Assembly (NCBI GenBank): GCA_035533075.1
Contig: DATLUO010000063.1
Span: 1 to 64,000 of the forward strand
Length of the DNA: 64,000 bases
Direction: 5' to 3'
Origin: Pirellulales bacterium
Lineage (GTDB): Bacteria; Planctomycetota; Planctomycetia; Pirellulales; JAICIG01
Shown: one piece after another, positions 2,609 through 43,645 of the stretch
How the letters are laid out: each line of letters opens with the position of its first letter
Position numbering within the stretch: the first letter of the stretch is position 1
The notes under the pieces: generated by a model
Databases searched by the model: none
Told to the model about the DNA's origin: nothing
The model's input: only the letters and a program-made list of their open reading frames with translations
Position numbers and translations under genes: made by a program

Positions 2609-3259
2609 CTACTCGGTGTATGGAAGGTTGAGGCTGTTTCCGCCGTTAGCTCTGCTCAAAGCCGTGGCTGGTGAACAAAGGTCGGCGGCGAACTCGGCTT
2701 GCTGATACCGGCCACTGGAGACGTCCGGATGGGGCGTCACGACTTCGCGCCACGGGTTAAGGCCACCTTGGGGTTTGCCTTCGGTCGGCTGAAACGACGC
2801 CTTGCGCATTTCGCTGCGGCGCTGCTCGTCGAACTGCCCCCGCAGCAGGTCCATTCGCATCTGCTCGACCTCGGCCGCCTCAGGGGCCGAGATCGCGGTC
2901 AATAGTCGGCCTGTGCTGTCGAGCGCGCGATAAGCGTCGTTGCCGCTGAAGGCTTCGTTGTGCGCCCAGCGGTTCCGCACCTCGCGCAGCTCGCTGACCA
3001 GGCTCCGCTCCGCGTGGCCCAGCGTGCGGGCAAACACATTGTTCCACTGGTTCCAAACCGCGTTCAGCAACAACTGCGGATCGGCCAGATTTGGCTTCGT
3101 TGCCTTCTTACCGCGAGCCGCCCTGGGCGCGCCATCCGCCAGCACCTCTTCCCACTTCTCGCCCAGCGCCGCTTTCAATTCACGCTCGTCGAACGGCTGC
3201 AAGCCCGCCGCCAAAAGGTCGATCGCCTTGCCGACCCGTTCTCGATTCGTTACCGCCAT
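2609..3259 (-). pseudogene. Truncated DUF499-type ATPase (N-terminal Swt1-HEPN part only)
   Basis: The 216-aa reading frame begins like the Swt1-type HEPN domain found at the N-terminus of DUF499 ATP-binding proteins of methyltransferase-linked defence clusters: [16 protein letters not shown], then [17 protein letters not shown] with the HEPN RX4H pair Arg95/His100. Residues 169-194 ([20 protein letters not shown] onward to AADL) match the linker that in full-length DUF499 proteins leads into the ATPase core. After about residue 194 (near 2677) the similarity stops and an unrelated 20-residue tail runs to a stop, so the ATPase domain is missing. It lies 9 bp downstream of the PIN gene. A stand-alone HEPN protein is the alternative; I judge truncation more likely. 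Confidence 0.68.
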
Positions 3260-3268
3260 AGTTGGCCC

Positions 3269-3757
3269 TCAATCGCTCATGAGTTTGGGACAGAGAAAGT
3301 TGACTTCTATACCGTGACGAACGAGTGCCTCACGGTCGTTCCACCAATCGGTGTCGGTGGCATTGTCAATGTTGGCAATCGGGTCACAGCCAAGAGCGAC
3401 GGCCACCCATTTGCGGTCGGCCGGGTCGAAGCCCGCGAGGTCGGGATCGTCGGAGAATTCGACGAAGTTTGTAGGGTCGTCTTCCCTTGGCGTGATCTCG
3501 ACTTGAACGCAATGACCTGGATTCGCCTGATTGCTCCAGAGCCATTTGAGAAAAAAGTCGCCCGGCCCCGGTTGGCCCTTCAGTGACGCGTAGGTCCTAT
3601 ATTCGCGTAAAATGCGCATGCCAGTGTCGATGGCGACCACATCCGCATCGTGAATTCGTCGCAATTCTTTGATACAACTCTCGACGCACTCTGGATCTAC
3701 ATGGTCCGCGAACTTGTTGGCCGTTGCCAGCACGTTCGTGTCGACGACTACGGGCAT
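3269..3757 (-). CDS. PIN-like nuclease domain protein, coupled to ATPase gene
   Basis: A 162-aa protein starting MPVVVDTNVLATANKF, the typical first strand of a PIN ribonuclease fold. Candidate metal-binding acids occur in PIN order: Asp6, Glu52, Asp114 (FDPADRKWVAVAL) and Asp131 or Asp135. The start is fixed by context: the ATG overlaps the stop of the upstream ATPase gene by one base (TGATG), which implies translational coupling. A longer in-frame extension to 3913 would run inside the ATPase gene and is rejected. The pairing suggests the ATPase controls or delivers the nuclease, as in several two-gene immunity modules. The substrate is unknown. Confidence 0.8.
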   Translation of the reverse strand: MPVVVDTNVLATANKFADHVDPECVESCIKELRRIHDADVVAIDTGMRILREYRTYASLKGQPGPGDFFLKWLWSNQANPGHCVQVEITPREDDPTNFVEFSDDPDLAGFDPADRKWVAVALGCDPIANIDNATDTDWWNDREALVRHGIEVNFLCPKLMSD

Positions 3758-5121
3758 CAGGCGCCCTCCTGCCGCCGTTCGGAAATAGCTTCCGCCATCG
3801 CCGCCATCTCGCCAAACTGGTCGCCAAAAAAGTCGTCGGGCCAATTGCTGATGTTCCCGAACGCATCCACTTCGAGCAGGTCGAGCTGCGAAACGCCTTT
3901 TTCGAGCCTGCAAAAGTACAGGGCCACGTCGCTGCTGCTGAGCGATTCTTCGGCAATCCGCCGTTGCATGCGCCTGAGCAAGTGTTCGCTGTGGCTTTCC
4001 ACGATCAGCTGCAGGTTCCTTGCTTTAGCGACCTCGATCAACAGGTCAGCAAGTGCCGCTTGCACGCGAGGATGCAGGTGCGCCTCAGGCTGCTCCAGGA
4101 GAATCGTCGATCCGTCCGGCACATAATAGCAGAGGACAAGAACCGGCAAGAGTTGCGAGACGCCAAAGCCAACATCGGTGATGAGCACTTCGGGCGACTC
4201 GGCCGTGCGGCGTACCCGAACGCGGTAGAGCCCGCTTCCCCCAGCAATTTCCTGGACCGCGAAGTCATGGATTAATCCAAGCTCCTGGAGCCAATAGGCC
4301 ACGGATTCTTCGACAGAACGTTCAACGCCCGTGGCTCGATCGCGGATTTGGTGGCCGTTATGACGGCTGGCGAGCAAGGCATCGACGACTCGTTCGCCAT
4401 GCGGGCCAACGTCGTCCGGCTTTCCTCCCGCCCAGGTGTAATGGCGGGCCGGCACCGCGCGCAGCGGACCGAGGTAAAACAGGCGGCCGAAGAGTTCCTC
4501 GACTTGGAGGCTAAGGTCGGAAAGGAAGCCGGCCTTTTGGAAATAGATCTTCACCTGATAGGGAAACCCGTAACATTTCACGGGCGCCGGGAGATCCCAA
4601 CGGTGTCGTTCCGTTCGCTTTAATCCGGGCGCGGCGGGCCCTTGAGCCCAAAGCGAGTAGTCACCCCGGCCCGGGTCGCGGTTGTAACCGAACGTCGATC
4701 CGCCGAAATCGTAAGCCATGCGCTCGACGCGGACCTCGCCCGTTTCTGCGCCGCTTACGGTGCATCGGTACGCGATCTTGTCGTCCTCAATGACAACCGC
4801 GTCCGGTCCTTCTTCCAGGTCGACAATCTGCCTCGTGTGGCCAAGCAACCAGCGTAGCTCCCAGCCAATCCGCCCTGGCAGTTCGTGACCATGCACGACA
4901 TCGCCAAACGAACCAAGTTCAACGAGGCTTCGGCTGTCCCCGAGGTCCAGTGCTTGCGTTCGGTCGGAGGAATCGACGGTTTGCTTGAGCATCAGCAGCC
5001 ATTGCAGGATGCTCGTTTTGCCCGAGCTATTTGTGCCAAACAAACCCGTGATCGGGGCGAGCCGCATTCGCTCGATCTTCCGCCATGACTTGAAGCTGTC
5101 GAGAGAAATCTCAGTAATCAT
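3757..5121 (-). CDS. AAA family ATPase with DUF3696 C-terminus
   Basis: A 454-aa ABC/OLD-like AAA ATPase. The P-loop GTNSSGKT is at residues 29-36 near the N-terminus after a LDSFKSW strand. The Walker B region ILLEQPEAHLHPRVQAAL and the downstream LIVESHSEHLLRR segment are typical of the family. The C-terminus VDAFGNISNWPDDFFGDQFG matches the DUF3696 signature. It is followed, with a one-base TGATG overlap, by a PIN nuclease gene and preceded at 14 bp by a VapC-like gene. Such ATPases are often sensor/effector subunits of phage-defence modules. That role is inferred from context; the ATPase assignment is strong. Confidence 0.85.
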   Translation of the reverse strand: MITEISLDSFKSWRKIERMRLAPITGLFGTNSSGKTSILQWLLMLKQTVDSSDRTQALDLGDSRSLVELGSFGDVVHGHELPGRIGWELRWLLGHTRQIVDLEEGPDAVVIEDDKIAYRCTVSGAETGEVRVERMAYDFGGSTFGYNRDPGRGDYSLWAQGPAAPGLKRTERHRWDLPAPVKCYGFPYQVKIYFQKAGFLSDLSLQVEELFGRLFYLGPLRAVPARHYTWAGGKPDDVGPHGERVVDALLASRHNGHQIRDRATGVERSVEESVAYWLQELGLIHDFAVQEIAGGSGLYRVRVRRTAESPEVLITDVGFGVSQLLPVLVLCYYVPDGSTILLEQPEAHLHPRVQAALADLLIEVAKARNLQLIVESHSEHLLRRMQRRIAEESLSSSDVALYFCRLEKGVSQLDLLEVDAFGNISNWPDDFFGDQFGEMAAMAEAISERRQEGA

Positions 5122-5135
5122 ATCGGTCTCGCCTC

Positions 5136-5537
5136 TTACTTCAGTAATGCCGTAAATCCTGCCTGCTCGTAATGATGGTCACCCGTGAGCGCTTCTCGAA
5201 TGCCCCGGTCGTGCATAACCACGAACGAAATGCAGTCCGTCAATGACCACTTTTTATCCGGACGGGAGTCGTAAAGCTCCGTGCCACGAACCATCAGTTC
5301 TTCGCTGGGCGGTACGATCTCGGTGTCAGGATCCGCCTGAAGGCGGCCGACGAGCTGCGCGAACACATGCCGCTTGTCGGTCGTGGCGAGGCCGTCCGCG
5401 AGTTCGGTCAGGACCCATGCGGTCGTGACCACATTCTCATTATGTTGGGTCGCGTAGGCGAGCGCGCGTTGGTGGGCCGCGTCATTCGGATTGAGGACCG
5501 CGAAAAAGTAAAAAGCGTCGGCGAACACTTGGTTCAT
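5136..5537 (-). CDS. VapC-like PIN domain toxin
   Basis: A 133-aa PIN domain protein. The conserved acids are Asp7 (FADAFYFFAVL), Glu45 (VLTELADGL), Asp101 (SLTDCISFVVM) and Asp120 (ALTGDHHYEQAGF), the full VapC quartet. VapC toxins cleave tRNA or rRNA, but the target here is unknown. Its ATG overlaps the stop of the upstream antitoxin-like gene by 4 bp, the standard vapBC arrangement. It differs from the second PIN gene at 3269-3757, which is paired with an ATPase rather than an antitoxin. Confidence 0.85.
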   Translation of the reverse strand: MNQVFADAFYFFAVLNPNDAAHQRALAYATQHNENVVTTAWVLTELADGLATTDKRHVFAQLVGRLQADPDTEIVPPSEELMVRGTELYDSRPDKKWSLTDCISFVVMHDRGIREALTGDHHYEQAGFTALLK

Positions 5538-5887
5538 TCCTTTGGCGCTCCGTGCAAGTAGTGGTCATGATGCTCGGCCATGTCTGCCGGCAGATCGGGG
5601 ACCGAGCCAATAAGGTCTCCGAACTGCTCGGCCAGCGTCATTCTCCGCCCCGAAGGAGCCGACGTTTCCTTAAGACCCATTGCACGGTTCCATATTTTCT
5701 CTAGCACGTCACGAGCTTCGCCCGGATCGTTGACCGGCTGGCCCGGCATGCGGGCCTTTCCGTTCTCGTCCTCTACCAAAAAGTTGCCGTGACCGTCCGG
5801 GTAGATGTAAAGACGCAGGTCGAGCCGCGCGCCGCTCGGCGTTGGCTGAATTGGGATGCTTGTAAGCCATTTGTCGAATTTCATCAT
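5534..5887 (-). CDS. Putative antitoxin partner of the PIN toxin
   Basis: A 117-aa acidic protein immediately upstream of the VapC-like gene with a 4-bp overlap. Its C-terminus, GDLIGSVPDLPADMAEHHDH followed by YLHG, resembles the toxin-wrapping tail of a class of VapB-type antitoxins (pattern GSxxxxPxDxxxxHDxYLxG). The N-terminal part (KWLTSIPIQPTPSGARLDLR) has no DNA-binding fold that I recognise, and it is longer than usual VapB proteins. If it is an antitoxin it would bind the toxin through this tail and may autoregulate the pair. Confidence 0.66.
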   Translation of the reverse strand: MMKFDKWLTSIPIQPTPSGARLDLRLYIYPDGHGNFLVEDENGKARMPGQPVNDPGEARDVLEKIWNRAMGLKETSAPSGRRMTLAEQFGDLIGSVPDLPADMAEHHDHYLHGAPKE

Positions 5888-5903
5888 CTTTTCCTTCGCT
5901 TCG

Positions 5904-6863
5904 TTAGCGCCATAATTCGGTTTCGATGGTTTCTATTGCCTCTTCTTCTGATTTTGCGTCGAGAAGAAGGTATGTCTCGCGCGAGCCTCCGCCCACTTGG
6001 CGTATCGACTGCTTTCGTAGTCTGGCTAGACAGCGCTTGTTGGTCAGGGCATCAATGCGGTCTAAATCATCTTCGGTTAGATCGTCGGCGACGGTGCCAG
6101 TCGTTACGTTACCGTCATCGCCTAACAAGTCAAACACGAGAGACTCTCTGGTTAGTCCGCGGAAGACCCCCTTTGCCAGAAGATCCTCCTCCTCTAGTTC
6201 ACGTTCCAAGCGATCTGACGCGGACTGGATCCGTTCACTCGTGATCGACTGGGACGGAGCGGCGGAAAATGCGACACGAAGCTCAGCTCCGTGCTGAGCG
6301 AGGATGTTGAAGAATTTCTTCATGGAGCGCAGCACGCCGGGCGGGATCTCACCGACGAGTTCGTCAAGCGAGCGATCACTGCTGCTAACCTGCACCAAGG
6401 CGTTGGCCACATTTTGGAGCGACCGCGCGTGGAGATTCAGTAAGCCCTCGTCTTCCGCATGCCGCGGCACAAATTCGAGCCCAAATGAGCCACGCGGCGT
6501 GCCTGTGAACAATAAACCAGGGAATGGCGAGCCACGCGGCCGACGCTGGCGCCCCGCAATGCGAGCGGCATCTCTCTCGTCGCGCAAAGCCTGCTCAATA
6601 AACATCCGCTCATACTGAATGAGCGCTTCTCCGGCCAAGCCGGGGCGAATACCGTGACCCTCCTGGACGCCGCCGCCTTTCAAGAATAGCGCAACCCGAG
6701 GTGGGGTTGCGCGTTCCTCACGGAACAGCGTGCCGCTAGGACGCTCGACTTCACGGAGCTGGTAGACGAGCCGACGGGGTGAGGCGCCGAGCGGGACCAA
6801 AAAGTGATCGACGCCGAAAACCGATTTCAAGCGGCGCGTGTCGAGAAGCATCGGCTTGCTCAT
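5904..6863 (-). CDS. Uncharacterised protein, first cargo gene of the island
   Basis: I do not recognise this 319-aa protein. It is soluble in appearance: no signal peptide or membrane segment. It has an acidic C-terminal half with a Glu-rich helix (RLERELEEEDLLAKG) and a Lys/Arg-rich middle region. The first 60 residues (MSKPMLLDTRRLKSVFGVDH onward) look like beta strands. It lies 16 bp upstream of the antitoxin-like gene, so the two are likely co-transcribed, and directly downstream of the DUF1156 methyltransferase remnant. Its base composition appears less GC-rich than the surrounding housekeeping genes, which would fit an acquired cargo gene. A defence-related role is only suggested by position. 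Confidence 0.7.
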   Translation of the reverse strand: MSKPMLLDTRRLKSVFGVDHFLVPLGASPRRLVYQLREVERPSGTLFREERATPPRVALFLKGGGVQEGHGIRPGLAGEALIQYERMFIEQALRDERDAARIAGRQRRPRGSPFPGLLFTGTPRGSFGLEFVPRHAEDEGLLNLHARSLQNVANALVQVSSSDRSLDELVGEIPPGVLRSMKKFFNILAQHGAELRVAFSAAPSQSITSERIQSASDRLERELEEEDLLAKGVFRGLTRESLVFDLLGDDGNVTTGTVADDLTEDDLDRIDALTNKRCLARLRKQSIRQVGGGSRETYLLLDAKSEEEAIETIETELWR

Positions 6864-7029
6864 GGATACGGGGAGAGCTGGTTCGGATCTCGTGGGTCAC
6901 CTAAGTGGGGCGGCAACACGTTCAAAATGCTGTCAAATGCTGGGATCGGCATAGGGGTCGCTTTCCTGCCATTTTAACACGTCTGGGGCCGCGCCGAAGC
7001 GCCCGCTACGAGTGGCCGACTGGCTCGGA

Positions 7030-7751
7030 TTAGAACATTTCTTCTTGGTTTTGCCGCCCTTCTGTTCGCCGGGCGTGTGCCAGCTTGCTCAACTCCGGCC
7101 AGGCGATGAGCAGGCCGTTGTAGGCCAACGCTTCGTCGGCCCACTTCTTGCGCTCGCAGAGCGTGTAGAGCCGATAGGCCAGCTCTCGGGCAGTCTCGCC
7201 GATGCCGCCCAGCCGGGCCAAGAGCGCGGCCGCGCCGGATTCGCCTTGCGTTTCCAGGGCGCGAATCAGGTGCTGGGTGGTTTCCCAGACGGTCAGGCGA
7301 CCGTCGGCGGCGGGTCCCAGTCGTCGGGCAAGTCGTCGCGGCCGACGAGCTTGACTTTGCCGCCGCGGGCCTTGACGACGCCGGCTTCGACCAGCCCGGC
7401 GACGGCGGTGTTCTTGGCTTTGGAGAGCGTTTCGGCGACGCCGTAGGGGCCTTCGTGCATGCCGTATTCGGCGAACCAGGCCAGCGCCCAGCGGGTGTCG
7501 GGGTCGAAGTCGCCTTCCTGTTCGGCGAGCACTTCGTCGAGCACCTGGTTGATGATGCCCAGGGCGGTGCGCACGCTCATGGCCGAGCCGTCGGCCTCGA
7601 CCACTTTGGCATAGCGTGTGAAGACCGCCATGCCCGGCCCAATCGCCGCCTGCGCCAGATCGACCGGCGCGATATTGCAGTGCTGCAAGTTCTTCAGCGC
7701 CTCAGGCAACTCCGCCCGCAGGGCGTTCATGAAATCTTTCCGCGTGGCAAG
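7030..7751 (-). pseudogene. DUF1156 DNA methyltransferase remnant (C-terminus, frameshifted)
   Basis: Two frames read as the C-terminal region of DUF1156-type DNA methyltransferases. Frame 1 (7293-7751) gives ALPEALKN-like text, then APVDLAQAAIGPGMAVFTRY, NQVLDEVLAEQEGDFDPDTR and a LSKAKNTAVAGLVEAGVV stretch, ending at DDWDPPPTVA. A one-base loss near 7303-7307 shifts the reading; the second frame continues DGRLTVWETTQHLIR and then ARELAYRLYTLCERKKWADE to the stop at 7030. The N-terminal catalytic part is absent. It is fused upstream to a helicase fragment, so a large internal deletion probably joined the two genes. Confidence 0.75.
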
Positions 7752-7762
7752 CGGGGCGTTCG

Positions 7763-7984
7763 GTAGGCCAGCCGAATGCGGTGGGCCTCGGATACTAGCC
7801 GGAAGAGCGCGCCGTCGCCGTCGAAGCTCCACGGCTGGCCGGCGACGGCGATTCCGCCAGAGTCGCGATACGTGAGGTTGATGGCAACGCTGCCGATTCA
7901 ATCGACGGCCACCACCGTGACCAGGCCATCAGGCAAAACGCCTTTGACCGATGTTCCGACGGTGATTTCTTCCAAGCGGGCCAT
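7763..7984 (-). pseudogene. SNF2-type helicase remnant (N-terminus, in-frame stop)
   Basis: Reading from an ATG at 7984 gives MARLEEITVGTSVKGVLPDG, then LVTVVAVD followed by an in-frame TGA where a Trp (TGG) would be expected, then IGSVAINLTYRDSGG and QPWSFDGDGALFRLVSEAHR with IRLAY. This matches the N-terminus of the large helicase that accompanies DUF1156 methyltransferases and DUF499 ATPases. After IRLAY (near 7763) the frame diverges and stops; the next readable segment is the DUF1156 C-terminus. The helicase motor domain is gone. The family assignment rests on remembered sequence style and should be tested by search. Confidence 0.62.
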
Positions 7985-8243: not shown

Positions 8244-11200
8244 TTGACCCAAAGCCGAAAGCGGCCTTCCGTGATCGATCGTCTGCAAAAAACCGTTGCC
8301 GAGACTGGACAGGGCGAAACGCCGCGCGATGTTGGTGTCTCGGCGCCCGTGCCGGAGCGGATCGGTCGCTACCGCGTCGAGGGGCTGCTGGGCAAGGGTG
8401 GGTTCGGTCTGGTCTACTTGGCTTACGACGACCAATTGCAGCGGCTCGTCGCCATCAAGGTGCCGCACGCCAAGCTCGTCGCACAGATCGCGGACGCCGA
8501 AGCCTATCTTGTTGAAGCTCGCACCGTCGCCAAACTCGACCACCCCAATATCGTGCCGGCGCATGATGTGGGCAGCACCGGGCAGTTCCCCTGTTTTTTT
8601 GTCTCGAAGTACGTCGACGGCACCAACCTCTTCACGAGGCTCAAACAGTCCCGACCGTCGCTGCATGAAGCCGTGGAACTGGCGGCGGCCGTGGCCGAAG
8701 CATTGCACCACGCCCACAAGCAAGGCGTCGTGCATCGGGACATCAAGCCCGGCAACATCCTGCTCGACAAGACCGGCAAGCCGTTCGTCGGAGATTTTGG
8801 CTTGGCGCTTCGCGAGCAGGATGTCGGCAGCGGGCCGCGCTACGCCGGGACCCCGGCCTACATGAGTCCCGAGCAGGCCCGCGGAGAGGGGCACCGGGTT
8901 GACGGCCGCAGCGATATTTTCAGCCTGGGTGCGGTCTTGTACGAAATGCTCACGGGCAGGCGTCCCTTTTCCGCGGATGTGGAAGAGGAACTGCTGGAAC
9001 AAGTTGTTTCGCTCGAGCCGCGACCGCCCCGCCAGATTGACGACGCCATTCCAAAAGAACTCGAACGAATATGTTTGAAAGCGTTGTCGAAGCGTGCCTC
9101 GGAGCGATACACCACGGCGAAGGACATGGCTGACGATTTGCGCCATTTCTTGACCGAGCACGGTGGCGACTCTCTGGCGGCGACGATCGACATGCCGGTC
9201 GCCGCCGCGGCGGCGGCAATGGACCGGTCTGGCACTCCCTCGACGAAGCCCCAAACTCTGACCTCCGACGCGGCGCCTCTGAGAATTGTCCCGAAAGGAT
9301 TGCGGTCTTTCGACGCGCACGATGCCGATTTCTTCCTCGACCTGCTTCCCGGCCCTCGCGACCGAAACGGTCTGCCCGATAGCATCCGTTTTTGGAAGAC
9401 CGCCATTGAAGAATTTGACGCCGACAAGACCTTCCCGGTGGGCTTGATCTATGGGCCAAGCGGCTGCGGCAAGTCGTCGCTCGTGAAAGCCGGCTTGCTG
9501 CCGCGCTTGTCCCCCGATGTGATTGCGGTGTACGTCGAGGCCACGGCCGATCGGACGATGACGCGCCTGCTGAACGGCTTGCATAAACGCTTTCCTGGCC
9601 TGCCGGGAACTCCGGGTCTGAAGGATACGCTGACGGCACTGCGCCGGGGGATGGGTCTTCCGGCTTGCAAGAAGGCGCTGATCGTCCTCGACCAATTCGA
9701 GCAGTGGTTGCACGCCAACAACGAAGACCACAACAACGAGCTGGTGCAGGCCTTGCGGCAGTGCGACGGCGAGCGGGTGCAGTGCATCGTCATGGTCCGC
9801 GATGATTTCTGGCTTGCGGTCAGCCGCTTTCTGCGGGATTTGGAAGTCCGACTCGTCGAAGGGCAGAACAGCGCCTTGGTGGATCTTTTTGACTTGGATC
9901 ATGCCAGGAAGGTGCTGGCCGCACTGGGGCGTGCTTTTGGCAAGCTTCCAGAGCGCCCCAGCGAAATGAGCAAAGAGCAGAAGGAGTTTTTGAAGCAAGC
10001 GGTTTCGGGCCTGGCCCAGGACGACAAGGTCATCTCCGTCCGCCTGGCGTTGTTCGCCGAGATGACCAAGGGCAAGTCCTGGACGGCAGCCACCTTGAGG
10101 GAAATGGGCGGCACGGCGGGCGTCGGCGTCGCCTTCCTGGAGGAGACTTTCAGCGCGAGCACGGCCCCGCCCGAACATCGTTATCACCAGCAAGCGGCCA
10201 GAGCCGTTCTAAAAACGCTCCTGCCGAATGCGGGGACCGATATCAAAGGACACATGCGGTCGCGCCGGAACTTGCTCGAAGCATCGGGCTATGCCAACCG
10301 CCCAAGGGACTTCGATAATCTCCTTCGTGTTCTGGACGACGAAGTACGCCTCATCACGCCGACCGAGCAGGAAACCAAAGAGGAAACCGCTCAAAACGCC
10401 GTCGAGCGCGGTGCAAGATACTACCAGTTGACCCACGACTACCTTGTTCCTTCCCTGCGCGACTGGTTGACGCGCAAACAGAAAGAAACCAGACGGGGCC
10501 GAGCGGAGTTGCTGCTGGCCGATCGCGCCGCGGTATGGAGTTCCCGGCCCGAAAACCGGCAATTGCCGTCGCTGCTGAACTGGCTGCAAATCCGCTGGCT
10601 GACGAGAAAGAAGAACTGGACGGCTGCCGAGCGGAAGATGATGGCAAAGGCCACGCGCTGCCATGCGTCGAAGAGCCTGGTGGTCGCGGTGATTCTGGTC
10701 CTGATCGGAGGGGGCACGCACGAAACGCTCGGCAGGCTGAAAGCCCAAGCGTTGAAGGACCGTCTTCTCGACGCCCACACCAATGAAGTCCCAACCATCG
10801 TCCACGACATGGTTTCTTATCGTCGGTGGCTCGACCCTCTTCTCTACGACGCTTATGCACAGGCCGAAGCGAACAAGGATCCACGGAAGCAACTGCATGC
10901 GGGCCTGGCCCTGTTGCCGGTCGATACCGCGTTCGTCGATTACCTTTTTGATCGCCTGCTCGACTCGAACCCGGAAGAAACTCCGGCGATTCGCGACGCG
11001 CTCGCGCCGCACAAGGCCGCCCTGCGGGACCGGCTGTGGGCCGTCATGGAATCGTCCGGAAAGGCCCTGGAAAAGCAACGCTTGCCGGCGGCTTCGGCGC
11101 TGGCGAGTTATGGCCCGCCCGACGAGGATGACGATGCGGGACGCTGGCAAAGGGCATCGGGCGTCATTGCCGACGAATTGCTGGCCGCGGTGCGGGAAAA

Positions 11201-12734
11201 TCCCAGCCATTTCGCCACGCTCGTCGACCAATTGCGACCTGTCCGGTTCGTCTTGCTGCCTCCACTGAGCGAGATTTTCCGCGAGCGCCGGCGACCGGAG
11301 TCTGAGCGGTCGTTTGCGACGATCATTCTGGCCGATTACGCCGCCGACAAGCCGCACTTGCTGGCCGATCTGCTCATGGATGCCGACGCGAAGCAGTTCT
11401 CCTTGCTCTATCCCAAGCTGACGGAACACCGTGCCTCCGCGATCGGCATTTTGCGAAATGAATTAGCCAAGCGACGTGAACCGGTCGCCGGCACAGCAGA
11501 ACGAGACGAGCTGGCGAGTCGACAGGCCAATGCGGCGGTGGCCATTTGGCGGCTCGACGGCCCCGTCTCGGTGCGACAACTGCTCGAACACAGCCGCAAT
11601 CCGACGATTCGCAGTTACCTGGTTCGTCGGCTCGGACCCTGCGGCGCCGTCGATCCGCAGGACCTGATGAGGCTGGTGACGGCCGAGCCGAACGTCACCA
11701 TACGCCGAGCGCTGATCTTGAGCATCGGCGAATTCGCGGGCACGCCGTTGCCAGACCGCGGCGAATTGGTTGACTGGTTGCTGAGCATTTTCGAGCGCGA
11801 TTCGGATGCGGGCATGCACGCGGCGACGGCATACTTGCTGACATGCCTCGGAGAAGACGACAAGATCGAAGCAGCCCTCGAACGACTGCGCCTGAGCGAA
11901 GCAGAGATTCAGGAGCGTAACTGGGATGGACCGGCTGGCGGTCCTCTTTGGTTCGTCAATGGCCAGGGCCAGACGATGAGCGTTATTCCTGGCCCGGCGC
12001 AGTTTGTCATGGGATCGCCCCCCGGCGAACTCGGCAGGGAGGCAAGTGAGTCGCAGCATACGGTCCGGATCAGCCGAACGTTCGCCATCGCCGCCCACGC
12101 GGTGACCGTCGGCGAATTTCGCCGGCTCGGTTTTGGGGCCATCGATCGCCCCCCGCACTATCCGGTGACCTACGTGTCGTGGCATGGGGCGGCGGCCTAT
12201 TGCAATCGTCTCAGCGAGCAAGAGGGCATTCCGCCGGACCAATGGTGCTACGAGATCGATGAGCAACAGCGCGTGGTGAAGCTGCGGCCGAAGTATCTGA
12301 GCCTGACGGGTTATCGCCTGCCGACGGAAGCGGAGATGGAGTTTGCCAGCAGGGCCAATGCCTCGACAAGCCGTTACTTTGGCGATACCGACGAGCTTTT
12401 GGCCGGCTATGGCTGGTACGTGCCGAACTCGAACGGCATGGTCCAGCCCGGAGGCCGCTTGCGGCCCAACGACTTTGGACTCTTTGACGCGCTTGGCAAC
12501 GTCTGGACCTGGTGCCAGGAGAAGAAACGTGATTACCCCCAGACAGGCAGTGACCAGATCGTCGAAGATGTCGAATCCGACCTGGAGATCGGTTCTTGGC
12601 CACGCATGCTGCGCGGCGGGTGCTACACAGATCATGCAGCCGGGTTACGCACCGCACATCGCTGGTCGGAACTGCCGACGGCAACGAGCAACATCGTTGG
12701 CTTCCGCGTCGCTCGGACCCTCACCGCCCAATAG
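8244..12734 (+). CDS. Ser/Thr kinase - STAND-like NTPase - FGE-like domain protein
   Basis: A 1496-aa signalling protein. Residues about 43-300 form a Hanks-type kinase: GKGGFGLVYLAYD glycine loop, Lys72 in VAIKV, HRDIKPGN with Asp166, and DFG with Asp184. A second NTPase follows: P-loop GPSGCGKS at 404-411 and Walker B-like ALIVLDQFEQWL near 478-490. A single membrane helix lies near 806-824 (LVVAVILVLIGGG). The region from 850 to 1220 looks like helical repeats. From about 1231 the C-terminus is an FGE-sulfatase/lectin-like fold (PAQFVMGSPPG, YRLPTEAEMEFASRA, LGNVWTWC, GFRVART). The start is TTG at 8244 because the nearby ATG at 8237 is out of frame; GTG 8271 is an alternative. It sits directly beside the relic defence island. 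The FGE-like domain is probably a binding module rather than a sulfatase activator. Confidence 0.87.
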   Translation: MTQSRKRPSVIDRLQKTVAETGQGETPRDVGVSAPVPERIGRYRVEGLLGKGGFGLVYLAYDDQLQRLVAIKVPHAKLVAQIADAEAYLVEARTVAKLDHPNIVPAHDVGSTGQFPCFFVSKYVDGTNLFTRLKQSRPSLHEAVELAAAVAEALHHAHKQGVVHRDIKPGNILLDKTGKPFVGDFGLALREQDVGSGPRYAGTPAYMSPEQARGEGHRVDGRSDIFSLGAVLYEMLTGRRPFSADVEEELLEQVVSLEPRPPRQIDDAIPKELERICLKALSKRASERYTTAKDMADDLRHFLTEHGGDSLAATIDMPVAAAAAAMDRSGTPSTKPQTLTSDAAPLRIVPKGLRSFDAHDADFFLDLLPGPRDRNGLPDSIRFWKTAIEEFDADKTFPVGLIYGPSGCGKSSLVKAGLLPRLSPDVIAVYVEATADRTMTRLLNGLHKRFPGLPGTPGLKDTLTALRRGMGLPACKKALIVLDQFEQWLHANNEDHNNELVQALRQCDGERVQCIVMVRDDFWLAVSRFLRDLEVRLVEGQNSALVDLFDLDHARKVLAALGRAFGKLPERPSEMSKEQKEFLKQAVSGLAQDDKVISVRLALFAEMTKGKSWTAATLREMGGTAGVGVAFLEETFSASTAPPEHRYHQQAARAVLKTLLPNAGTDIKGHMRSRRNLLEASGYANRPRDFDNLLRVLDDEVRLITPTEQETKEETAQNAVERGARYYQLTHDYLVPSLRDWLTRKQKETRRGRAELLLADRAAVWSSRPENRQLPSLLNWLQIRWLTRKKNWTAAERKMMAKATRCHASKSLVVAVILVLIGGGTHETLGRLKAQALKDRLLDAHTNEVPTIVHDMVSYRRWLDPLLYDAYAQAEANKDPRKQLHAGLALLPVDTAFVDYLFDRLLDSNPEETPAIRDALAPHKAALRDRLWAVMESSGKALEKQRLPAASALASYGPPDEDDDAGRWQRASGVIADELLAAVRENPSHFATLVDQLRPVRFVLLPPLSEIFRERRRPESERSFATIILADYAADKPHLLADLLMDADAKQFSLLYPKLTEHRASAIGILRNELAKRREPVAGTAERDELASRQANAAVAIWRLDGPVSVRQLLEHSRNPTIRSYLVRRLGPCGAVDPQDLMRLVTAEPNVTIRRALILSIGEFAGTPLPDRGELVDWLLSIFERDSDAGMHAATAYLLTCLGEDDKIEAALERLRLSEAEIQERNWDGPAGGPLWFVNGQGQTMSVIPGPAQFVMGSPPGELGREASESQHTVRISRTFAIAAHAVTVGEFRRLGFGAIDRPPHYPVTYVSWHGAAAYCNRLSEQEGIPPDQWCYEIDEQQRVVKLRPKYLSLTGYRLPTEAEMEFASRANASTSRYFGDTDELLAGYGWYVPNSNGMVQPGGRLRPNDFGLFDALGNVWTWCQEKKRDYPQTGSDQIVEDVESDLEIGSWPRMLRGGCYTDHAAGLRTAHRWSELPTATSNIVGFRVARTLTAQ

Positions 12735-13476: not shown

Positions 13477-15471
13477 ATGATTTCGTTGCCCGTCTGCCGT
13501 TGGCGCTGCAATCTCGTCGACGGTCAATACATCTGTACGTCGGCGAAGTACTGCGGGTCGCCGAATGTTATCGCGGCCCGGTTCTGCGCCGATTGCGGTT
13601 GCGCCGACCATGAGCCGCCTGCTCCTCTTCCGCATGCCATGCCGTGCGTTCACCTGGGCGTGCTGCTGCGCGAAAATGGCCGGCGGCGCCAGGCGAATGC
13701 CGAAAGTGCGCAGCAACACTTTGCTTGCGCGCTATTTGGAAGTTGCCGGACCGAAGCTCCTGACCAGCGCCTTCCGGCGGAGGACCGCAGTTGCCAAACG
13801 TGCGCCGATTACCTGGCGCGCGACCCCTTCGGGCCCGACTCGGCCACAATGCGGAATCGGGCCGAGGAGTTTTTAGCGGCCATTCCGGAGTATCCGGCGG
13901 AGCGTTACCGCGGCCGGGGCATTGTCATCGCCGCTGGGGGCGACCGCTTTTTTCCCTCGCTTTATGTCACCGTTCGCGCGTTGCGTCATGTGGGCTGCAG
14001 GCTGCCGGTCCAGGTCTGGTATCTGGGTCGCCACGACGAGATGCCGGAGAAGCGCCAAAAGCTGCTGGCGACGTATGGAGTTGAGTGCATCGATGCCGAT
14101 CGGGTGCGCCGCCGCCACCCGGCCCGCCGCCTGGACGGTTGGGAGCTGAAGGTTTTCGCGACACTGCACTCTCCTTTCGAGGAAATCCTTTTTCTCGATG
14201 CCGACAGCTATCCGTGTCGCAACCCCGAGTTCCTGTTTGAGCAGAAGGACTACCAAGCGCGCGGAGCGATATTTTGGCCCGATGTGCTGACCATCGATGA
14301 CCGTCTCAAGTGGCCTGCCTTTGGCGTCGCCGATCCCCGTCGCCTGGGCTCGATCGAGAGCGGGCAGTTCGTGATCGATAAGCGGCTTAGTTGGCGGCCG
14401 CTCAACTTGGCATGGTTTTACAACGATCACTCCGATTACTACTACCGCTATTGCCATGGCGACAAGCACACCTTCGAAGTCGCCTGGACCCGCTGCGGCC
14501 GGCCGTTTGTCATGTGGCATCCTCAGGCGCCTTGGATCGACGTGGCCATCGTGCAGTCGGGCCCCGACCGCATTCCTTTATTCGTGCATCGCTGCCGCGA
14601 CAAGTTTCGTCTCGACGACCACGACTACACCACCCCGCAATACAGGGCCCTGCCGACTTATCACTCCTCGTTGCCGATGGAAGAGGAGTGCTGGGGCTGG
14701 TTGACCGAACTGGCCCGTCTGATGCGCCGCAAGCCTCCCAGCCGGGGCGCCGTCGAGCACGTAAAGCCGCGGAAAACCCGGGCACGCAAGGCGCAATTCG
14801 CTATCGCCACCTTGTATACTCCGGAAATCGCCGACCTAGGAGCACGCACCTCCCAAGTTATCGCTCGTTATGCCGCGCGACATGGTTATCAGGCCCTCAT
14901 CGCCGAGGAATCTCTCGACGCTGCACGGCACCCTGCCTGGAGCAAACTCCTCTTGACCGAGCAGTTCCTCGTCAATCATCCAAGCTGCACCTGGCTGATG
15001 TGGATCGACGCCGACGCGGTGATTATGAACCCGACGCAACGTTTGGAACACCTGGTCGATGAGAACGCCGACTTTGTGGTTGCTCAAGACCGCTCTGCTT
15101 GTTCAATCAACACAGGCGTTTTCTTCCTTCGCAACTGCGCGGCGGCGTTGAATATGTTGCGACTCGCCTACTCCAAGGTGCAATACCTGCACCACGCCTG
15201 CTGGGAACAGCCTGCTGTGGCGGACGCGATGAGCGAGTGTTCCGACACCTTACGCACCCGCATCGTTTCGCGGCGATTGTTCAATTCCTTTTTCGACGAA
15301 TACGAACCAGGCGACTTTGTGCTTCATTTCGCGGGTTGCAACCATGAAATGAAGTTGGCCAGCGTGAGAAGCATCGTCGACTCGGCGGGGCCGGTTACGA
15401 AACGATCGCCCGGCGGCGCTGCACGTAATCCCACACCACGTAGCGGTCGAGATCGCGCCCGGCGGTGTTAA
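13477..15471 (+). CDS. Two-domain glycosyltransferase with Cys-rich N-terminus
   Basis: A 664-aa protein with three parts. Residues 1-120 are Cys-rich (CRWRC, FCADCGCADH, HFACALFGSC, CQTCADY), like putative metal-binding leaders seen on planctomycete glycosyltransferases. Residues about 140-400 resemble the mannosyltransferase-like GT fold: GIVIAAGGDRFFPSLYVTVR, then a DXD-like EILFLDADSYPCRNPEFL. Residues about 430-640 resemble a second, GT34-like fold: FAIATLYTPEIADL, a second DXD-like WLMWIDADAVIMNP, and NTGVFFLRN. Two sugar-nucleotide sites in one chain would allow two transfer steps. The acceptor is unknown. Confidence 0.78.
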   Translation: MISLPVCRWRCNLVDGQYICTSAKYCGSPNVIAARFCADCGCADHEPPAPLPHAMPCVHLGVLLRENGRRRQANAESAQQHFACALFGSCRTEAPDQRLPAEDRSCQTCADYLARDPFGPDSATMRNRAEEFLAAIPEYPAERYRGRGIVIAAGGDRFFPSLYVTVRALRHVGCRLPVQVWYLGRHDEMPEKRQKLLATYGVECIDADRVRRRHPARRLDGWELKVFATLHSPFEEILFLDADSYPCRNPEFLFEQKDYQARGAIFWPDVLTIDDRLKWPAFGVADPRRLGSIESGQFVIDKRLSWRPLNLAWFYNDHSDYYYRYCHGDKHTFEVAWTRCGRPFVMWHPQAPWIDVAIVQSGPDRIPLFVHRCRDKFRLDDHDYTTPQYRALPTYHSSLPMEEECWGWLTELARLMRRKPPSRGAVEHVKPRKTRARKAQFAIATLYTPEIADLGARTSQVIARYAARHGYQALIAEESLDAARHPAWSKLLLTEQFLVNHPSCTWLMWIDADAVIMNPTQRLEHLVDENADFVVAQDRSACSINTGVFFLRNCAAALNMLRLAYSKVQYLHHACWEQPAVADAMSECSDTLRTRIVSRRLFNSFFDEYEPGDFVLHFAGCNHEMKLASVRSIVDSAGPVTKRSPGGAARNPTPRSGRDRARRC

Positions 15472-15808: not shown

Positions 15809-16570
15809 CTAAACCTCCGCGCTGTCGGGCACGACAAACGGCTTGCGGTAATCGCGCGTCAGCATGCCGTCGGCGGTCGCGTCGTTCACAAACCGCTCTT
15901 GGGCCGAATCGAACTCCAACGGCGCCCCGAATTGGACCAGCGCCGTGTCGGACACATGGTTCTCGCCCAAATGCTTGGCGAAACGGTCAAAGTCTTCGGC
16001 CGCGTACACGCAGGCGGTCAACTGCTCACGCACTTCGCCCAAGGGCACCGGCTTGCCCAGCCGGTACGAGATGTTGCCCAGATGGCACAGCGCGCTTGAG
16101 AGATGCCCCTGCTCGATGTCCGCGTGCAGGTCTTCGCGGCGGCGGCTGCGCACCGCGCCCAAGAAGTTGCCAAAGTGGTCGCCGCCGGCTTTGAAGGTGC
16201 TGACGAGCTTGCCGGCGCGATCGAAGGAGGCGCCGGCGTCGTAGCTGGTGAGCACGACGTAGCCCTCGCTTCCCTCGAAGATCACGCCCACATTGGCGCC
16301 CTTGAGCGGCCCGGTCTTCAAGCCGCGGACCTCGAACATCAGCGATTTGTCGCCGTAATTGTGGATAATCATCTGCGTGTTGGCCGTCTCGCCGGCGTCT
16401 TCATAGCCGAAGCGGCCGCCGTAGCTCAGCACGCTCTTCGACAAGCCGGGCGCGCCCAGGCCCCAGCGGGCAATGTCCATCTGGTGAATGCCCTGATTGC
16501 CCAGATCGCCGTTGCCGTAGTCCCAGAACCAGTGCCAGTCGTAATGGAATTGCCTGCACCCGCTCGACAC
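15809..16570 (-). pseudogene. Gfo/Idh/MocA oxidoreductase, C-terminal half only
   Basis: The 253-aa frame begins inside a Gfo/Idh/MocA family protein: HYDWHWFWDYGNGDLGNQGI and HQMDIARWGLG belong to the substrate/oligomerisation domain, and it continues through DLHADIEQGHLSSALCHLGN to a normal C-terminus. The N-terminal Rossmann NAD(P)-binding half, usually some 150-200 residues, is absent; upstream sequence at 16571-16636 is unrelated and abuts the divergent cyclase gene. The only in-frame start is a GTG that makes a few non-homologous residues. It is therefore a 5'-truncated pseudogene, although a transcript could still be made. Confidence 0.8.
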
Positions 16571-16636
16571 CGGCCGGCCCGCTGCTTACACTTGGAACCT
16601 GTGTTTCCGTTCCCGTGGAGAACGCTTCGCGACCCT

Positions 16637-18529
16637 ATGGTCGATTACGAAAGGTTATCAGGTGCCTATCGGGCCGCTCGCCGTGAGCTGCTCGAACGGC
16701 GAAATTCGGCGGGGCATTGGGAGGGGCGGCTCTCCAGTTCCGCATTGTCTACGGCCACCGCGGTCAGCGCGCTGGCCATCGTGCGGCGGCAGCTCGAACG
16801 AGACGACTCGCCCAGTTCTTTTGAACTGCAGGAACGACTGGAGCGGCTGATCTTCGGCGGCCTCGACTGGCTGGTGCCTGCGCAAAACCGCGACGGCGGC
16901 TGGGGCGACACCGACCGCAGCGTATCGAACATTGCCACCACGATGCTGGTCCGGGCGGCGTTTCAGCTCACCTGCCTGCCCGCCGCCGACCCCGAACTGC
17001 TCCAGCGGGCCGACCAGTACGTTCGCACTCAGGGCGGCATCGCCGGACTGCGGCGGCGCTACGGCCGCGATAAAACGTTCGCCGTGCCGATCCTCACCAA
17101 CTGCGCGCTGGCCGGGCTGGTGTCGTGGAAAGAAGTGTCGCCGTTGCCCTTTGAGCTGGCGTGTTTTCCGCAGGCATGGTTTCGCTTCTTGCGGCTGCCG
17201 GTGGTGAGCTATGCCATTCCGGCGCTGGTGGCCATCGGCCAGGCGAGGTTTTTTCATCGCCCGCCGTGGAACCCGTTGGTGCGCTGGTGGCGGCGAGCGG
17301 CCGTCGAGAAGAGCCTGCGCGTGCTGGAGAAGCTGCAGCCGGCCGGCGGGGGCTTTTTGGAAGCCACGCCGTTGACCAGCTTCGTGGTGATGAGTCTGGC
17401 CAGCATCGGGCAAGCGCGGCATCCGGTCGCGCGTCGCGGCCTGGACTTCCTTTTGAACTCGGTCCGCGAAGATGGCTCGTGGCCCATCGACACGAACCTG
17501 GCCACGTGGGTCACCACGCTTTCACTCAACGCGCTCGCCACTGGCGACACGGAAACGGCCGTCGAAGCAAGCGAGCGATGCGCCGATTGGTTGCTCGACT
17601 GTCAATGCCGTGACGTCCATCCTTATACAGGCGCGACAGCGGGCGGCTGGGGCTGGAGCGACCTGAGCGGCTCCGTGCCCGACGCGGATGATACGTCGGG
17701 CGCTCTGTTGGCGTTGGCGTCGTACGATCAGGACGCGCGCGTTGCCGACGCCGCCCGGTTGGGAATTACCTGGCTTCTCGATCTGCAGAACTCCGACGGT
17801 GGCTGGCCGACCTTCTGCCGCGGTTGGGGCAAGCTTCCCTTCGACCGCAGTGGCAGCGATCTCACGGCGCACGCCCTGCGGGCCCTGCACGCCTGGCGGG
17901 AGGATGGGCTTCCTAGCCCGTCCAGTGGCGGACGGGACGGCCTAGGAAGGCCATCCTCCGCGTCCATCGACCGGGCCATCGATGCCGGTTTCCAATATCT
18001 GGCGCGCCAGCAGCAGCCCGACGGAAGTTGGATACCGCTGTGGTTCGGCAACCAGCACCATGCGCGCGAAGAAAACCCGCTCTACGGCACGGCCCGCGTG
18101 CTGCTGGCCTATGCCGATTTTGGCAAGCTCGACCATCCGGCTGCGCGCCGGGCCGCCGCCTGGCTTGCCAAGCAGCAACGCTCCGACGGCGGTTGGGGCG
18201 CCGAGCCGAGCGTCGAAGAAACCGCTCTGGCGGTCGAGGCGCTGCTGGCCCTCGACGGCGATTCCGCGTATCATCAGCACGTCGAGCGCGGGCTGAGCTG
18301 GCTGATCGAGTCAGTCGAAAGCGGCCGGTTTCGCCAATGCTCGCCGATCGGTTTCTACTTTGCCAAGTTGTGGTATTATGAGGCCCTGTACCCTATAGTG
18401 TTTAGCGTGTCGGCCTTGGGTCGGGCAGTGCGGCGATGTGAGCCGGCCCCGGCCCGCCGCCGCGTCGACCTGCTGCCCCGCCTGCCCGAGCCGACCTTAC
18501 TGCGTCCCTCGCCCGCCCCCTTAAGCTAG
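16637..18529 (+). CDS. Squalene-hopene cyclase-type terpene cyclase
   Basis: A 630-aa class II triterpene cyclase-like protein, close to the usual 630-residue length of squalene-hopene cyclases. The catalytic acid motif is present as PDADDT (Asp349-Ala-Asp-Asp352). QW-type repeats recur: QNRDGGWGDTD, QNSDGGWPTF, QQPDGSWIPLWFG and QRSDGGWGAE. A hydrophobic, Pro/Phe-rich stretch near 180-215 is a plausible membrane-binding region. The ATG at 16637 is chosen because the longer frame back to 16103 overlaps the Gfo/Idh remnant and is non-homologous. It is followed 22 bp later by a prenyl synthase gene, so it likely cyclises a polyprenoid made by that pathway. Whether the substrate is squalene is unknown. 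Confidence 0.83.
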   Translation: MVDYERLSGAYRAARRELLERRNSAGHWEGRLSSSALSTATAVSALAIVRRQLERDDSPSSFELQERLERLIFGGLDWLVPAQNRDGGWGDTDRSVSNIATTMLVRAAFQLTCLPAADPELLQRADQYVRTQGGIAGLRRRYGRDKTFAVPILTNCALAGLVSWKEVSPLPFELACFPQAWFRFLRLPVVSYAIPALVAIGQARFFHRPPWNPLVRWWRRAAVEKSLRVLEKLQPAGGGFLEATPLTSFVVMSLASIGQARHPVARRGLDFLLNSVREDGSWPIDTNLATWVTTLSLNALATGDTETAVEASERCADWLLDCQCRDVHPYTGATAGGWGWSDLSGSVPDADDTSGALLALASYDQDARVADAARLGITWLLDLQNSDGGWPTFCRGWGKLPFDRSGSDLTAHALRALHAWREDGLPSPSSGGRDGLGRPSSASIDRAIDAGFQYLARQQQPDGSWIPLWFGNQHHAREENPLYGTARVLLAYADFGKLDHPAARRAAAWLAKQQRSDGGWGAEPSVEETALAVEALLALDGDSAYHQHVERGLSWLIESVESGRFRQCSPIGFYFAKLWYYEALYPIVFSVSALGRAVRRCEPAPARRRVDLLPRLPEPTLLRPSPAPLS

Positions 18530-18551
18530 ACACGATCTTTGAGGTTTCAAC

Positions 18552-42487: not shown

Positions 42488-42702
42488 AAGGAAGCCGAGC
42501 TTCATGCGGGCTCCTCGGCGAGTTCCCGCAAAACCCGGTGCATTCAGGCCGGTGTAAGCCGCAGATCCTTGAGCAGTTCCCGCCGCTCGTTGGCTGGAAG
42601 CGTCCGCTTCAAGTGATCTCGCCGCTCCCGTGTCACATGCTCGCCGCGTCCGTCGCTAAGCTGGGTCCGACTTCGTCAACGAACCGCGATCCACATCTTT
42701 CC

Positions 42703-43645
42703 ATGAAAACGCAGACGGATCCCAAGGTCGATTACGCATTCAAGCACGTCTTTGGCCGCGAAGAGAGCAAGCCGGCGCTCGTCAGCCTGCTGAATGCCGT
42801 GTTGGAGCCGGCCGCCGGCGAAGGCATTGTCGGCCTGGAGTTGCTCAACCCCTTCAATGCAAAGGCCTTCGAAAGCGCCAAAACTTGCATCGTCGATATC
42901 AAGGCCCGTGACGAAAGTGGTCGCCAGTTCTTGGTCGAGATGCAAATGCTGGCCGCCGATGCGTTCCGGCAGCGGGCGCTCTTCTATTGGGCGGCACTTT
43001 ATCAGGAACAATTGCACCAAGGCGAAAACTGGCGGGAGCTGCGGCCGACGATCGCGGTTTGCTTTGTCGATACCCCGCTTTTCCGAGCTGCCGGACTATC
43101 ACTCGACCTTCGAGCTGCGCGAGCGCCGCCGTCAGACGCTCTTTACGGATCAACTGGCCCTGCATATCCTGGAATTACCGAAGTTCAAGAAAGGAATTGA
43201 TGAGCTGGCGACGCCGCTCGACCGCTGGCTCTATTTCTTGCGGAATGGCGAATACCTCGATGCGGAGACCGTGCCCGTTACCTTGGACGTGCCGGAGCTC
43301 CGCTGGGCATTAGGAGACCTGTTTATGATTTCGCGTATCGATCCGGAACGTGAGCTCTATGAAGCCCGGCTGCAAGAGCGGCGCGACAAGGCGTGGTTTG
43401 AACAAACCGTTGAACGAGCCGCTCAACAAGTTGCCGAAACTGCCGCAGCGAAGGGGCGCGAGCAGGGACGCGCGGAGGGACGCGCGGAGGGACGCACGGA
43501 GGCACTGCGAACAGTCATTCCAGCACTGCAAAAGTCGCTGGGGCAGCATGTTCTGCCACTGGAAGAATTGCAGACCCTCTCTTGCGACGAGTTAGAAACC
43601 ATCTGGACGCGGCTGCAAAACGATCTGCTGGACAACCACGATTAA
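42703..43645 (+). pseudogene. Rpn/PD-(D/E)XK nuclease-family gene with frameshift
   Basis: Frame 1 (from ATG 42703) gives KTQTDPKVDYAFKHVFGREE and CIVDIKARDESGRQFLVEMQ, the PD-(D/E)XK-like Asp..Glu-x-Gln site of the Rpn/YhgA-like family. Around 43078-43090 the similarity moves to another frame, continuing SELPDYHSTFELRERRRQTL and FKKGIDELATPLDRWLYFLR to a stop at 43645. The second half has a Gly/Arg/Glu-rich repeat (REQGRAEGRAEGRTEA) typical of these proteins. A single-base loss is the simplest cause. The frames together encode about 313 residues, the normal length. Confidence 0.8.

Follow-up and report, generated by a model that had tools for sequence, protein, structure and literature searches.

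A planctomycete protein family joining kinase, nSTAND1, membrane-helix, HEAT-like and FGE-fold parts, with differing trees for its inner and outer parts

The window analysed here, which covers the opening 64 kb of contig C63 from a draft genome of 8.54 Mb in 296 contigs, holds on its forward strand 1496 open codons that begin at a predicted TTG start (position 8244). Antisense open reading frames of 653, 406 and 390 aa overlap this stretch; the conserved protein is the one on the + strand. It is laid out as follows.

8244..12734, + strand: whole gene, kinase-nSTAND1-TM-HEAT-FGE (1496-aa ORF, Pfam)
8370..9122, + strand: PknB-type Ser/Thr kinase, aa 43-293 (Pfam PF00069 Pkinase, E 2.4e-45)
9411..10547, + strand: nSTAND1 NTPase, aa 390-768 (PF20703, E 2.3e-21)
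9453..9476, + strand: Walker A GPSGCGKS, aa 404-411 (from the sequence; pattern in 34/35 members)
9681..9701, + strand: Walker B IVLDQFE (D483), aa 480-486 (from the sequence; pattern in 34/35 members)
10659..10727, + strand: predicted single membrane helix, about aa 806-828 (hydropathy; continuous helix 794-843 in the model)
10761..11933, + strand: predicted all-helical HEAT-like stretch, about aa 840-1230 (AlphaFold2 model, Foldseek)
11973..12716, + strand: FGE-fold domain, aa 1244-1491 (PF03781, E 2.9e-31), without the catalytic Cys pair

A first-pass annotation had proposed a complete kinase with Asp166 and Asp184, a GPSGCGKS P-loop, one membrane helix and a C-terminal FGE-like fold, and each of these is borne out. 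The kinase carries VAIK (K72), E91, HRD (D166) and DFG (D184), and both Asp residues are invariant in 20/20 aligned rows (the window protein and 19 relatives). The fold closest to its model is that of PknB (5u94; Z 34.8, rmsd 1.7, 258 aligned); the kinase fold is one shared with PknB and other bacterial receptor kinases. PknB is a single-pass protein with PASTA repeats, in place of which the window protein has STAND, HEAT-like and FGE parts. The profile search that the annotation had proposed identifies the central region as nSTAND1, with 77.3 bits against a curated cut-off of 27.1 and with both Walker A and Walker B in place. In the structure comparison that included the STAND part, the match list was filled by the kinase. 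The architecture is not a chance assembly, as relatives that are 37-77% identical over the STAND part occur in other Planctomycetota and have equal domain order wherever their contigs permit.

The part of the protein beyond the STAND module (aa 771-1496) was modelled with AlphaFold2 at a mean pLDDT of 88.1. In this predicted fold, the HEAT-like stretch matches armadillo/HEAT scaffolds in Foldseek, among them beta-catenin and the PP2A scaffold (E 2e-4 to 1e-3, with low TM-scores), and Pfam HEAT_2 matches the outer part weakly, under its cut-off. The FGE-sulfatase match was obtained by scanning the C-terminal part alone; across 14 C-terminal parts scanned with Pfam, FGE was present in 14/14 and BTRD1 repeats in 2. 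The best fold match of the predicted FGE domain is TvpA of Treponema denticola (2y3c; Z 28.0, rmsd 2.5, 241 aligned), ahead of PvdO (25.6) and the true FGEs (about 23); TvpA, which is the variable protein of a diversity-generating retroelement (DGR), is the nearest PDB sequence too. At the two aligned positions that we take to be the FGE catalytic pair (C-x4-C), Cys is found in 0/18 and 1/18 aligned proteins. An FGE-like protein encoded on contig C288 of the same genome retains C-x4-C. The domain thus lacks the Cys pair of an active formylglycine-generating enzyme; we rejected an enzyme function for it on the missing cysteines and, on the same grounds, the domain is probably a binding fold. 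Two other cysteines, Cys1320 (kept in 17/18 aligned proteins) and Cys1335 (15/17), would allow a disulphide outside the cell.

The helix of the window protein is moderately hydrophobic (mean Kyte-Doolittle 1.76 for its best 19-mer), L073 has a weak one (1.19 over 19 residues), and nearly all members inspected have a hydrophobic stretch at the equivalent place. Taking as helix the most hydrophobic 19-residue stretch after the end of the STAND module or kinase, we counted Lys and Arg within 25 residues on each side in 16 proteins (13 STAND-bearing proteins, the second frame of the C18 copy described below and two STAND-less proteins). There are more before the helix than after it in 14/16 and equal numbers in 2, which is an N-inside/C-outside pattern. 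Hydropathy and charge together suggest that the kinase and STAND parts lie inside and the HEAT-FGE part outside. With a Pkinase domain, one helix and an FGE domain beyond the helix, the protein belongs with the planctomycete transmembrane Ser/Thr kinases that have an outer FGE, the membrane side being a prediction; in PMC11032199, FGE domains of planctomycete kinases are mostly predicted to be periplasmic, in single-span proteins. If, instead, all domains were cytoplasmic, the helix would only anchor the protein or be buried, and HEAT-FGE would serve, on the cytoplasmic side too, as a STAND sensor of the ordinary kind. The moderate hydrophobicity of the window helix would suit this arrangement, as would the prediction, in PMC10907252, that some STAND-CLec proteins are cytoplasmic. 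We nevertheless consider it improbable, given the positive flank on the N-side in all but two of the proteins counted, the recurrence of the hydrophobic stretch and the conservation of the Cys pair.

The same annotation had called the architecture unusual, which holds for the complete arrangement but not for its two ingredients, both of which are already known from PMC11032199, PMC8195603 and PMC10907252. The first of these describes kinase-TM-FGE proteins as common in Planctomycetota; they resemble the window protein in the N-terminal Pkinase, the one helix and a C-terminal FGE predicted outside, and differ in that the window protein has two extra parts, a STAND module that follows the kinase ahead of the helix and a HEAT-like stretch that separates the helix from FGE. 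In that paper, no highly supported cross-species clades of like-arranged kinases are reported, whereas the STAND-bearing kinases analysed here group together. Fusions of STAND and FGS with an N-terminal S/T/Y kinase are described in PMC8195603, where STAND, FGS and an N-terminal effector or EAD define the fusion; the window protein has all three (nSTAND1, FGS/FGE and the N-terminal effector). It departs from those conflict systems in the single helix that is predicted to place the sensor outside, in that no DGR was found and in scanned neighbourhoods that are not defence-like. The DGR targets of Thiohalocapsa PB-PSB1 (PMC10907252) likewise combine nSTAND1 with a C-terminal FGE/CLec domain, and one NACHT-CLec protein is predicted to be periplasmic; diversity there is linked to a DGR, whereas here none was found and diversity apparently comes from fast change and exchange of the outer part. 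We found no description of a kinase-nSTAND1-TM-HEAT-FGE family, or of outer-part exchange, among the papers listed by our literature searches (subscription papers and supplements being outside their scope), and what appears to be new is the difference between the trees of the inner and outer parts.

Upstream of the gene, on the minus strand, lie the remains of a defence locus.

2609..3259, - strand: N-terminal fragment of HmaC with HEPN_Swt1 (PF18731, E 6.1e-36; PADLOC HmaC at 2612-3259, 3-32 of 941)
3269-3913, - strand: HEC-03A (PADLOC at 3272-3913, E 1.4e-31, profile 1-153 of 159)
3757-5121, - strand: HEC-03B (PADLOC at 3760-5121, E 1.8e-154, profile 1-452 of 458)
7296..7901, - strand: C-terminal fragment of HmaB (PADLOC HmaB profile 727-875 of 967, E 1e-54)

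A PIN-domain gene is also left between the HmaB and HmaC fragments (2609-7901, - strand). Elsewhere in the genome, contig C182 encodes a 1043-aa HmaB-like protein that bears a DUF1156 match; it aligns in the window only from residue 803 (at 7760-7344 and then, past a stop, at 7314-7099), and of the DUF499 protein beside it only residues 80-109 align, at the HmaC fragment. Since hmaB and hmaC are both truncated, we interpret the locus as a decayed Hma locus that encloses a HEC-03 pair of full length. Hma, which combines a helicase, a methylase and an ATPase, counts as a candidate defence system (PMC8565338), and some candidates embedded in Hma have antiviral activity (PMC12988326). The defence island that the first-pass annotation had placed next door is therefore real insofar as an Hma locus adjoins the gene, but that locus is broken. 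Pfam DUF499 and DUF1156 have no match among the window proteins scanned, and a genome search placed none on C63 among the candidates scored; in this genome they are found on C182 and C193, with a weak DUF1156 match on C29. The earlier idea of a connection to DUF499 and DUF1156 genes is understandable on this basis, as the window locus is a decayed Hma and this genome encodes proteins of both Pfam families.

The same annotation had asked whether the kinase gene is itself part of the island. The gene is adjacent, with about 340 bases separating it from the HmaB fragment. However, it lies on the opposite strand, past the truncated 5' end of hmaB and hence outside the hmaABC operon, and it is exactly on this side that hmaB is without roughly its first 730-800 residues. 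Moreover, the island genes have no homologue (E 1e-8) in the flanks, some of them short, of 37 related loci. On strand, hmaB truncation and neighbourhood comparison, we rejected the kinase gene as a component of the Hma/HEC locus, a reading that is very improbable.

To describe the family, we compared 35 STAND-bearing genes, all from Planctomycetota. A kinase is present in 35/35, though truncated at a contig end in some of them, and FGE in 27/35; five of the eight genes without FGE run off their contig, and L129, L130 and L137 end earlier, L129 near its contig end. The HRD and DFG motifs are found in 33/35, the exceptions being a contig-cut copy on C176 and the most distant member, L077 of genome G064, whose kinase has no recognisable motifs. 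Outside the 35 we left a 155-aa fragment (L080) and two kinase-less nSTAND-like genes (L074 1174-3072, 29% identical, and L138 2-1504, 35% identical). The proposed check of phylogenetic distribution reveals a patchy planctomycete family. A STAND-bearing member was found in 11/392 sampled genomes of the phylum, namely the window's own, nine others from its class and one (G064) that lies outside this class; the query, STAND-plus-HEAT, matched 12/392 genomes, of which G266 shows only the STAND-less relative L079. Copies per genome are lower bounds, as at most two candidates per genome were scored. In a scan of GTDB contigs, the best 80 of 117 related loci begin with 21 (L124-L144) that are 37-77% identical and all planctomycete; the remainder of these 80 are either stretches of 23-42% identity or matches of very short length, and most of them come from other phyla.

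The window's genome holds further copies. One on C176, 50% identical, is cut by the contig start, and another on C18 is 61% identical over the kinase and most of the STAND part, within which it is split into overlapping frames of 751 and 894 aa (about 5782-5810 of locus L033, contig C18); it was counted once among the 35, with its FGE in the second frame. Contig C280 encodes a kinase-HEAT-FGE protein without STAND. Separately, four contigs of this assembly, C101, C171 and C56 at their starts and C118 at its end (L059, L060, L061 and L062), stop inside one FGE-domain gene, and the four pieces share 94-96% identity across about 416-420 bases. The assembly is thus broken by a family of FGE genes with several copies.

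Co-occurrence with DUF499 and DUF1156 had also been proposed as a check, and it came out divided: both families are commoner in genomes with the kinase family but unlinked to its genes. The searches scored part of the candidates, and the 12 family genomes counted include G266. With kinship and genome size ignored, DUF499 occurs in 44/392 genomes (5/12 family genomes versus 39/380 others; Fisher p 0.006) and DUF1156 in 66/392 (5/12 versus 61/380; p 0.035). Among good-quality genomes the figures are 5/12 versus 24/205 (p 0.012) for DUF499 and 5/12 versus 35/205 (p 0.048) for DUF1156, and among the matches listed for same-class genomes DUF499 stands at 5/11 family genomes versus 2/18 (p 0.07). 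In the single-contig genomes G024, G152 and G181, the family gene found is more than 2 Mb from DUF499; in the window's genome and in G274, DUF499 is on other contigs than the family gene, although one of those in G274 has a length of only 11.8 kb. The pattern points to some habit shared by these genomes, not to linkage.

No general partner gene emerged when we compared the window with the flanks of 16 loci and, in a second round, of 37. Downstream of the kinase gene lies one gene with relatives near other family members.

13477..15471, + strand: glycosyltransferase (Mannosyl_trans3, Glyco_transf_34)

A partial homologue of it (47% over 269 aa) follows the C176 paralogue, and this C176 glycosyltransferase is related to the gene preceding a family gene in G307. 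Other recurrences are a 400-aa protein near L072, L074, L134 and L138 (the one at L138 without a Pfam match), a caspase-domain gene (L138 1504-4872, with a homologue at L074 14528-17920, both close to family genes that are related to each other), a glycosyltransferase of L138 with homologues at L074 and L134, and, near L071, L131, L137 and L143, genes for sigma factors. We took up to two flanking ORFs on each side, each below 1300 aa, from our own ORF calling, some of which are surely spurious. Among the resulting 103 ORFs the commonest Pfam families are glycosyltransferases (Glycos_transf_2 6, Glycos_transf_1 3, Mannosyl_trans3 2, counts that may overlap) and sigma factors. The control comprised 138 distant ORFs (160 minus 22 that were very long, including the L074 caspase homologue, or under 125 aa); the first 25 of its 243 families, all with at least two members, did not include Glycos_transf_2. 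Depending on whether the control contains 0, 1 or 2 members of this family, its enrichment in the flanks has a Fisher p of 0.006, 0.04 or 0.08, and the recurrence of glycosyltransferases beside family genes is a lead only. Sigma region 4_2 gave no signal (6/103 flanking versus 4/138 control ORFs; p 0.33).

These neighbourhoods bear on whether the protein is an anti-phage or anti-invader sensor of the STAND-FGS type, in which the FGE domain would detect an invader, STAND would assemble and the kinase effector would stop the cell. Its domain set fits the STAND-FGS group with its S/T/Y-kinase N-termini (PMC8195603), the family is patchily distributed and its genomes are richer in DUF499 and DUF1156 by the counts above, a caspase-domain gene stands near two of its loci, and the kinase attracts matches from many of PADLOC's PD-T4-6 models. 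However, in the 25 of 35 PADLOC matches listed, the best stretch falls within aa 23-355, the kinase part; glycosyltransferases and sigma factors are the commonest Pfam families of the flanks; and of the PADLOC families listed for them (25 of 144), none has more than two proteins, most being kinase models and the rest type IIG and PbeA. With the DUF499 and DUF1156 genes unlinked and the sensor predicted outside the cell membrane, we judge this reading unlikely, though not far-fetched.

A further possibility is that the FGE domain is the target of a diversity-generating retroelement. TvpA is its nearest fold and PDB sequence, and STAND-FGE targets of such elements appear in PMC8195603 and PMC10907252. 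We searched the family genomes for reverse transcriptases, and matches were found at four stretches in the window's genome and at 28 in 10/11 other family genomes. Of 20 of these 28 that were examined, 19 are readable and all have a QGxxxSP-type motif 4 (retron/group II-like), and L114 has no readable motif; the eight unexamined stretches share scores with examined ones. DGR reverse transcriptases differ at motif 4. The reverse transcriptases of the window's genome are likewise retron/group II-like where readable, the fragment L039 having a GAPISP motif before YADD. Nor is there a near copy of the gene's final 355 bases elsewhere in its genome; the best match, located in a paralogue, covers 59 bases at 80%. 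As neither a DGR-type reverse transcriptase nor a template repeat was found, we rejected DGR diversification of the FGE domain, to which we give scarcely any credence even though absence from a draft assembly is not final. One retron-like reverse transcriptase of this genome is split over the ends of contigs C13 and C225 (L040, L041), which overlap in sequence.

The inner and outer parts of the family give differing trees. In a kinase tree of 47 rows, 31/32 STAND-bearing kinases form one group (100/99), all but L077, which stands apart there and was omitted from the 25- and 22-row trees for its very long branch; the STAND-less L079 and L083 (kinase-TM-HEAT-FGE) adjoin the group (90/88) and C280 is farther off. 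In the 25-row kinase tree, the STAND kinases come together at 86/88 only. The FGE tree (29 rows) instead disperses the three STAND-less proteins, with L079 joining L069 and L068 (99/94), C280 joining C18, L125, L135 and L136 (100/97), and L083 joining C176, L070 and L077 (90/84). A constraint keeping the STAND-bearing rows together was rejected by FGE (25 rows; p-AU 1.2e-7) and by HEAT (24 rows; p-AU 3.4e-5). The HEAT tree, unsettled by bootstrap and with some rows unplaceable, concurs with the FGE tree on the well-supported pairs (L079/L069; C280 with C18 and L125; L135/L136). Because the outer parts of three STAND-less kinases nest among STAND-bearing ones, the HEAT-FGE cassette has apparently been exchanged at or near the membrane helix.

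The STAND-bearing proteins also conflict among themselves. The kinase-plus-STAND tree unites L072/L136 (99/95), L068/L125 (95/91) and L068, L069, L071 and L125 (98/93). The first pairing is rejected by FGE (p 0.0018) and HEAT (p 0.004), and FGE rejects the second (p 6e-4) and the third (p 3.5e-4); without L071, the set L068, L069 and L125 forms no group in the inner tree either. These p-values are too favourable, as every tested group was named after the trees were seen. The evidence for an exchange in the window gene itself appears mixed: sisterhood with L127 is unrejected by kinase-plus-STAND (p 0.23) and has p 0.016 with the kinase alone, and sisterhood of the window FGE with L124 and L126 was tested on two sets, with p 0.075 and 0.032. 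In 209/210 pairs of 21 members, identity is lower over FGE than over STAND (medians 35.9% versus 50.1%) and, judged by these identities, the outer part evolves faster than the STAND part. Long branches that result from fast evolution could exaggerate the exchange signal. Loss of STAND in some lineages would account for the STAND-less proteins only on condition that their kinases, too, had changed position in the tree. We tentatively suggest that a conserved kinase and STAND core of single origin may carry interchangeable HEAT-FGE sensors, which would be traded also with STAND-less receptor kinases.

On balance, we favour the interpretation that the protein is a single-pass transmembrane receptor kinase, a member of the PknB-like kinome of planctomycetes in which a STAND module has its place between kinase and helix. 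The outer HEAT-like stretch and the non-catalytic FGE domain, a C-type-lectin fold, would bind a ligand, perhaps a cell-surface glycan or protein, and binding would be relayed through the membrane helix to the STAND module. This module may then swap ADP for ATP and oligomerise, and its oligomers would gather the PknB-like kinases for mutual phosphorylation and, from there, phosphorylation of cytoplasmic targets.

Planctomycetes have very large bacterial kinase sets, and a STAND switch between kinase and helix predicts ATP-driven clustering as the means of receptor-kinase activation. If the outer sensors are indeed interchangeable, one polypeptide would unite a cell-surface receptor kinase with the switch logic of NLR-type STAND proteins, and sensor diversity would stem from recombination, not from a retroelement. 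With sensor cassettes exchanged between STAND-bearing and plain receptor kinases, domain swaps could test how such kinases acquire new inputs.

Two further observations concern other genes of the window. A PD-(D/E)XK transposase-like gene (41494-43645, + strand) lies in two overlapping frames and is apparently broken, and a squalene-hopene-cyclase-like protein is followed by a DUF116-polyprenyl synthetase fusion (16103-20381, + strand).
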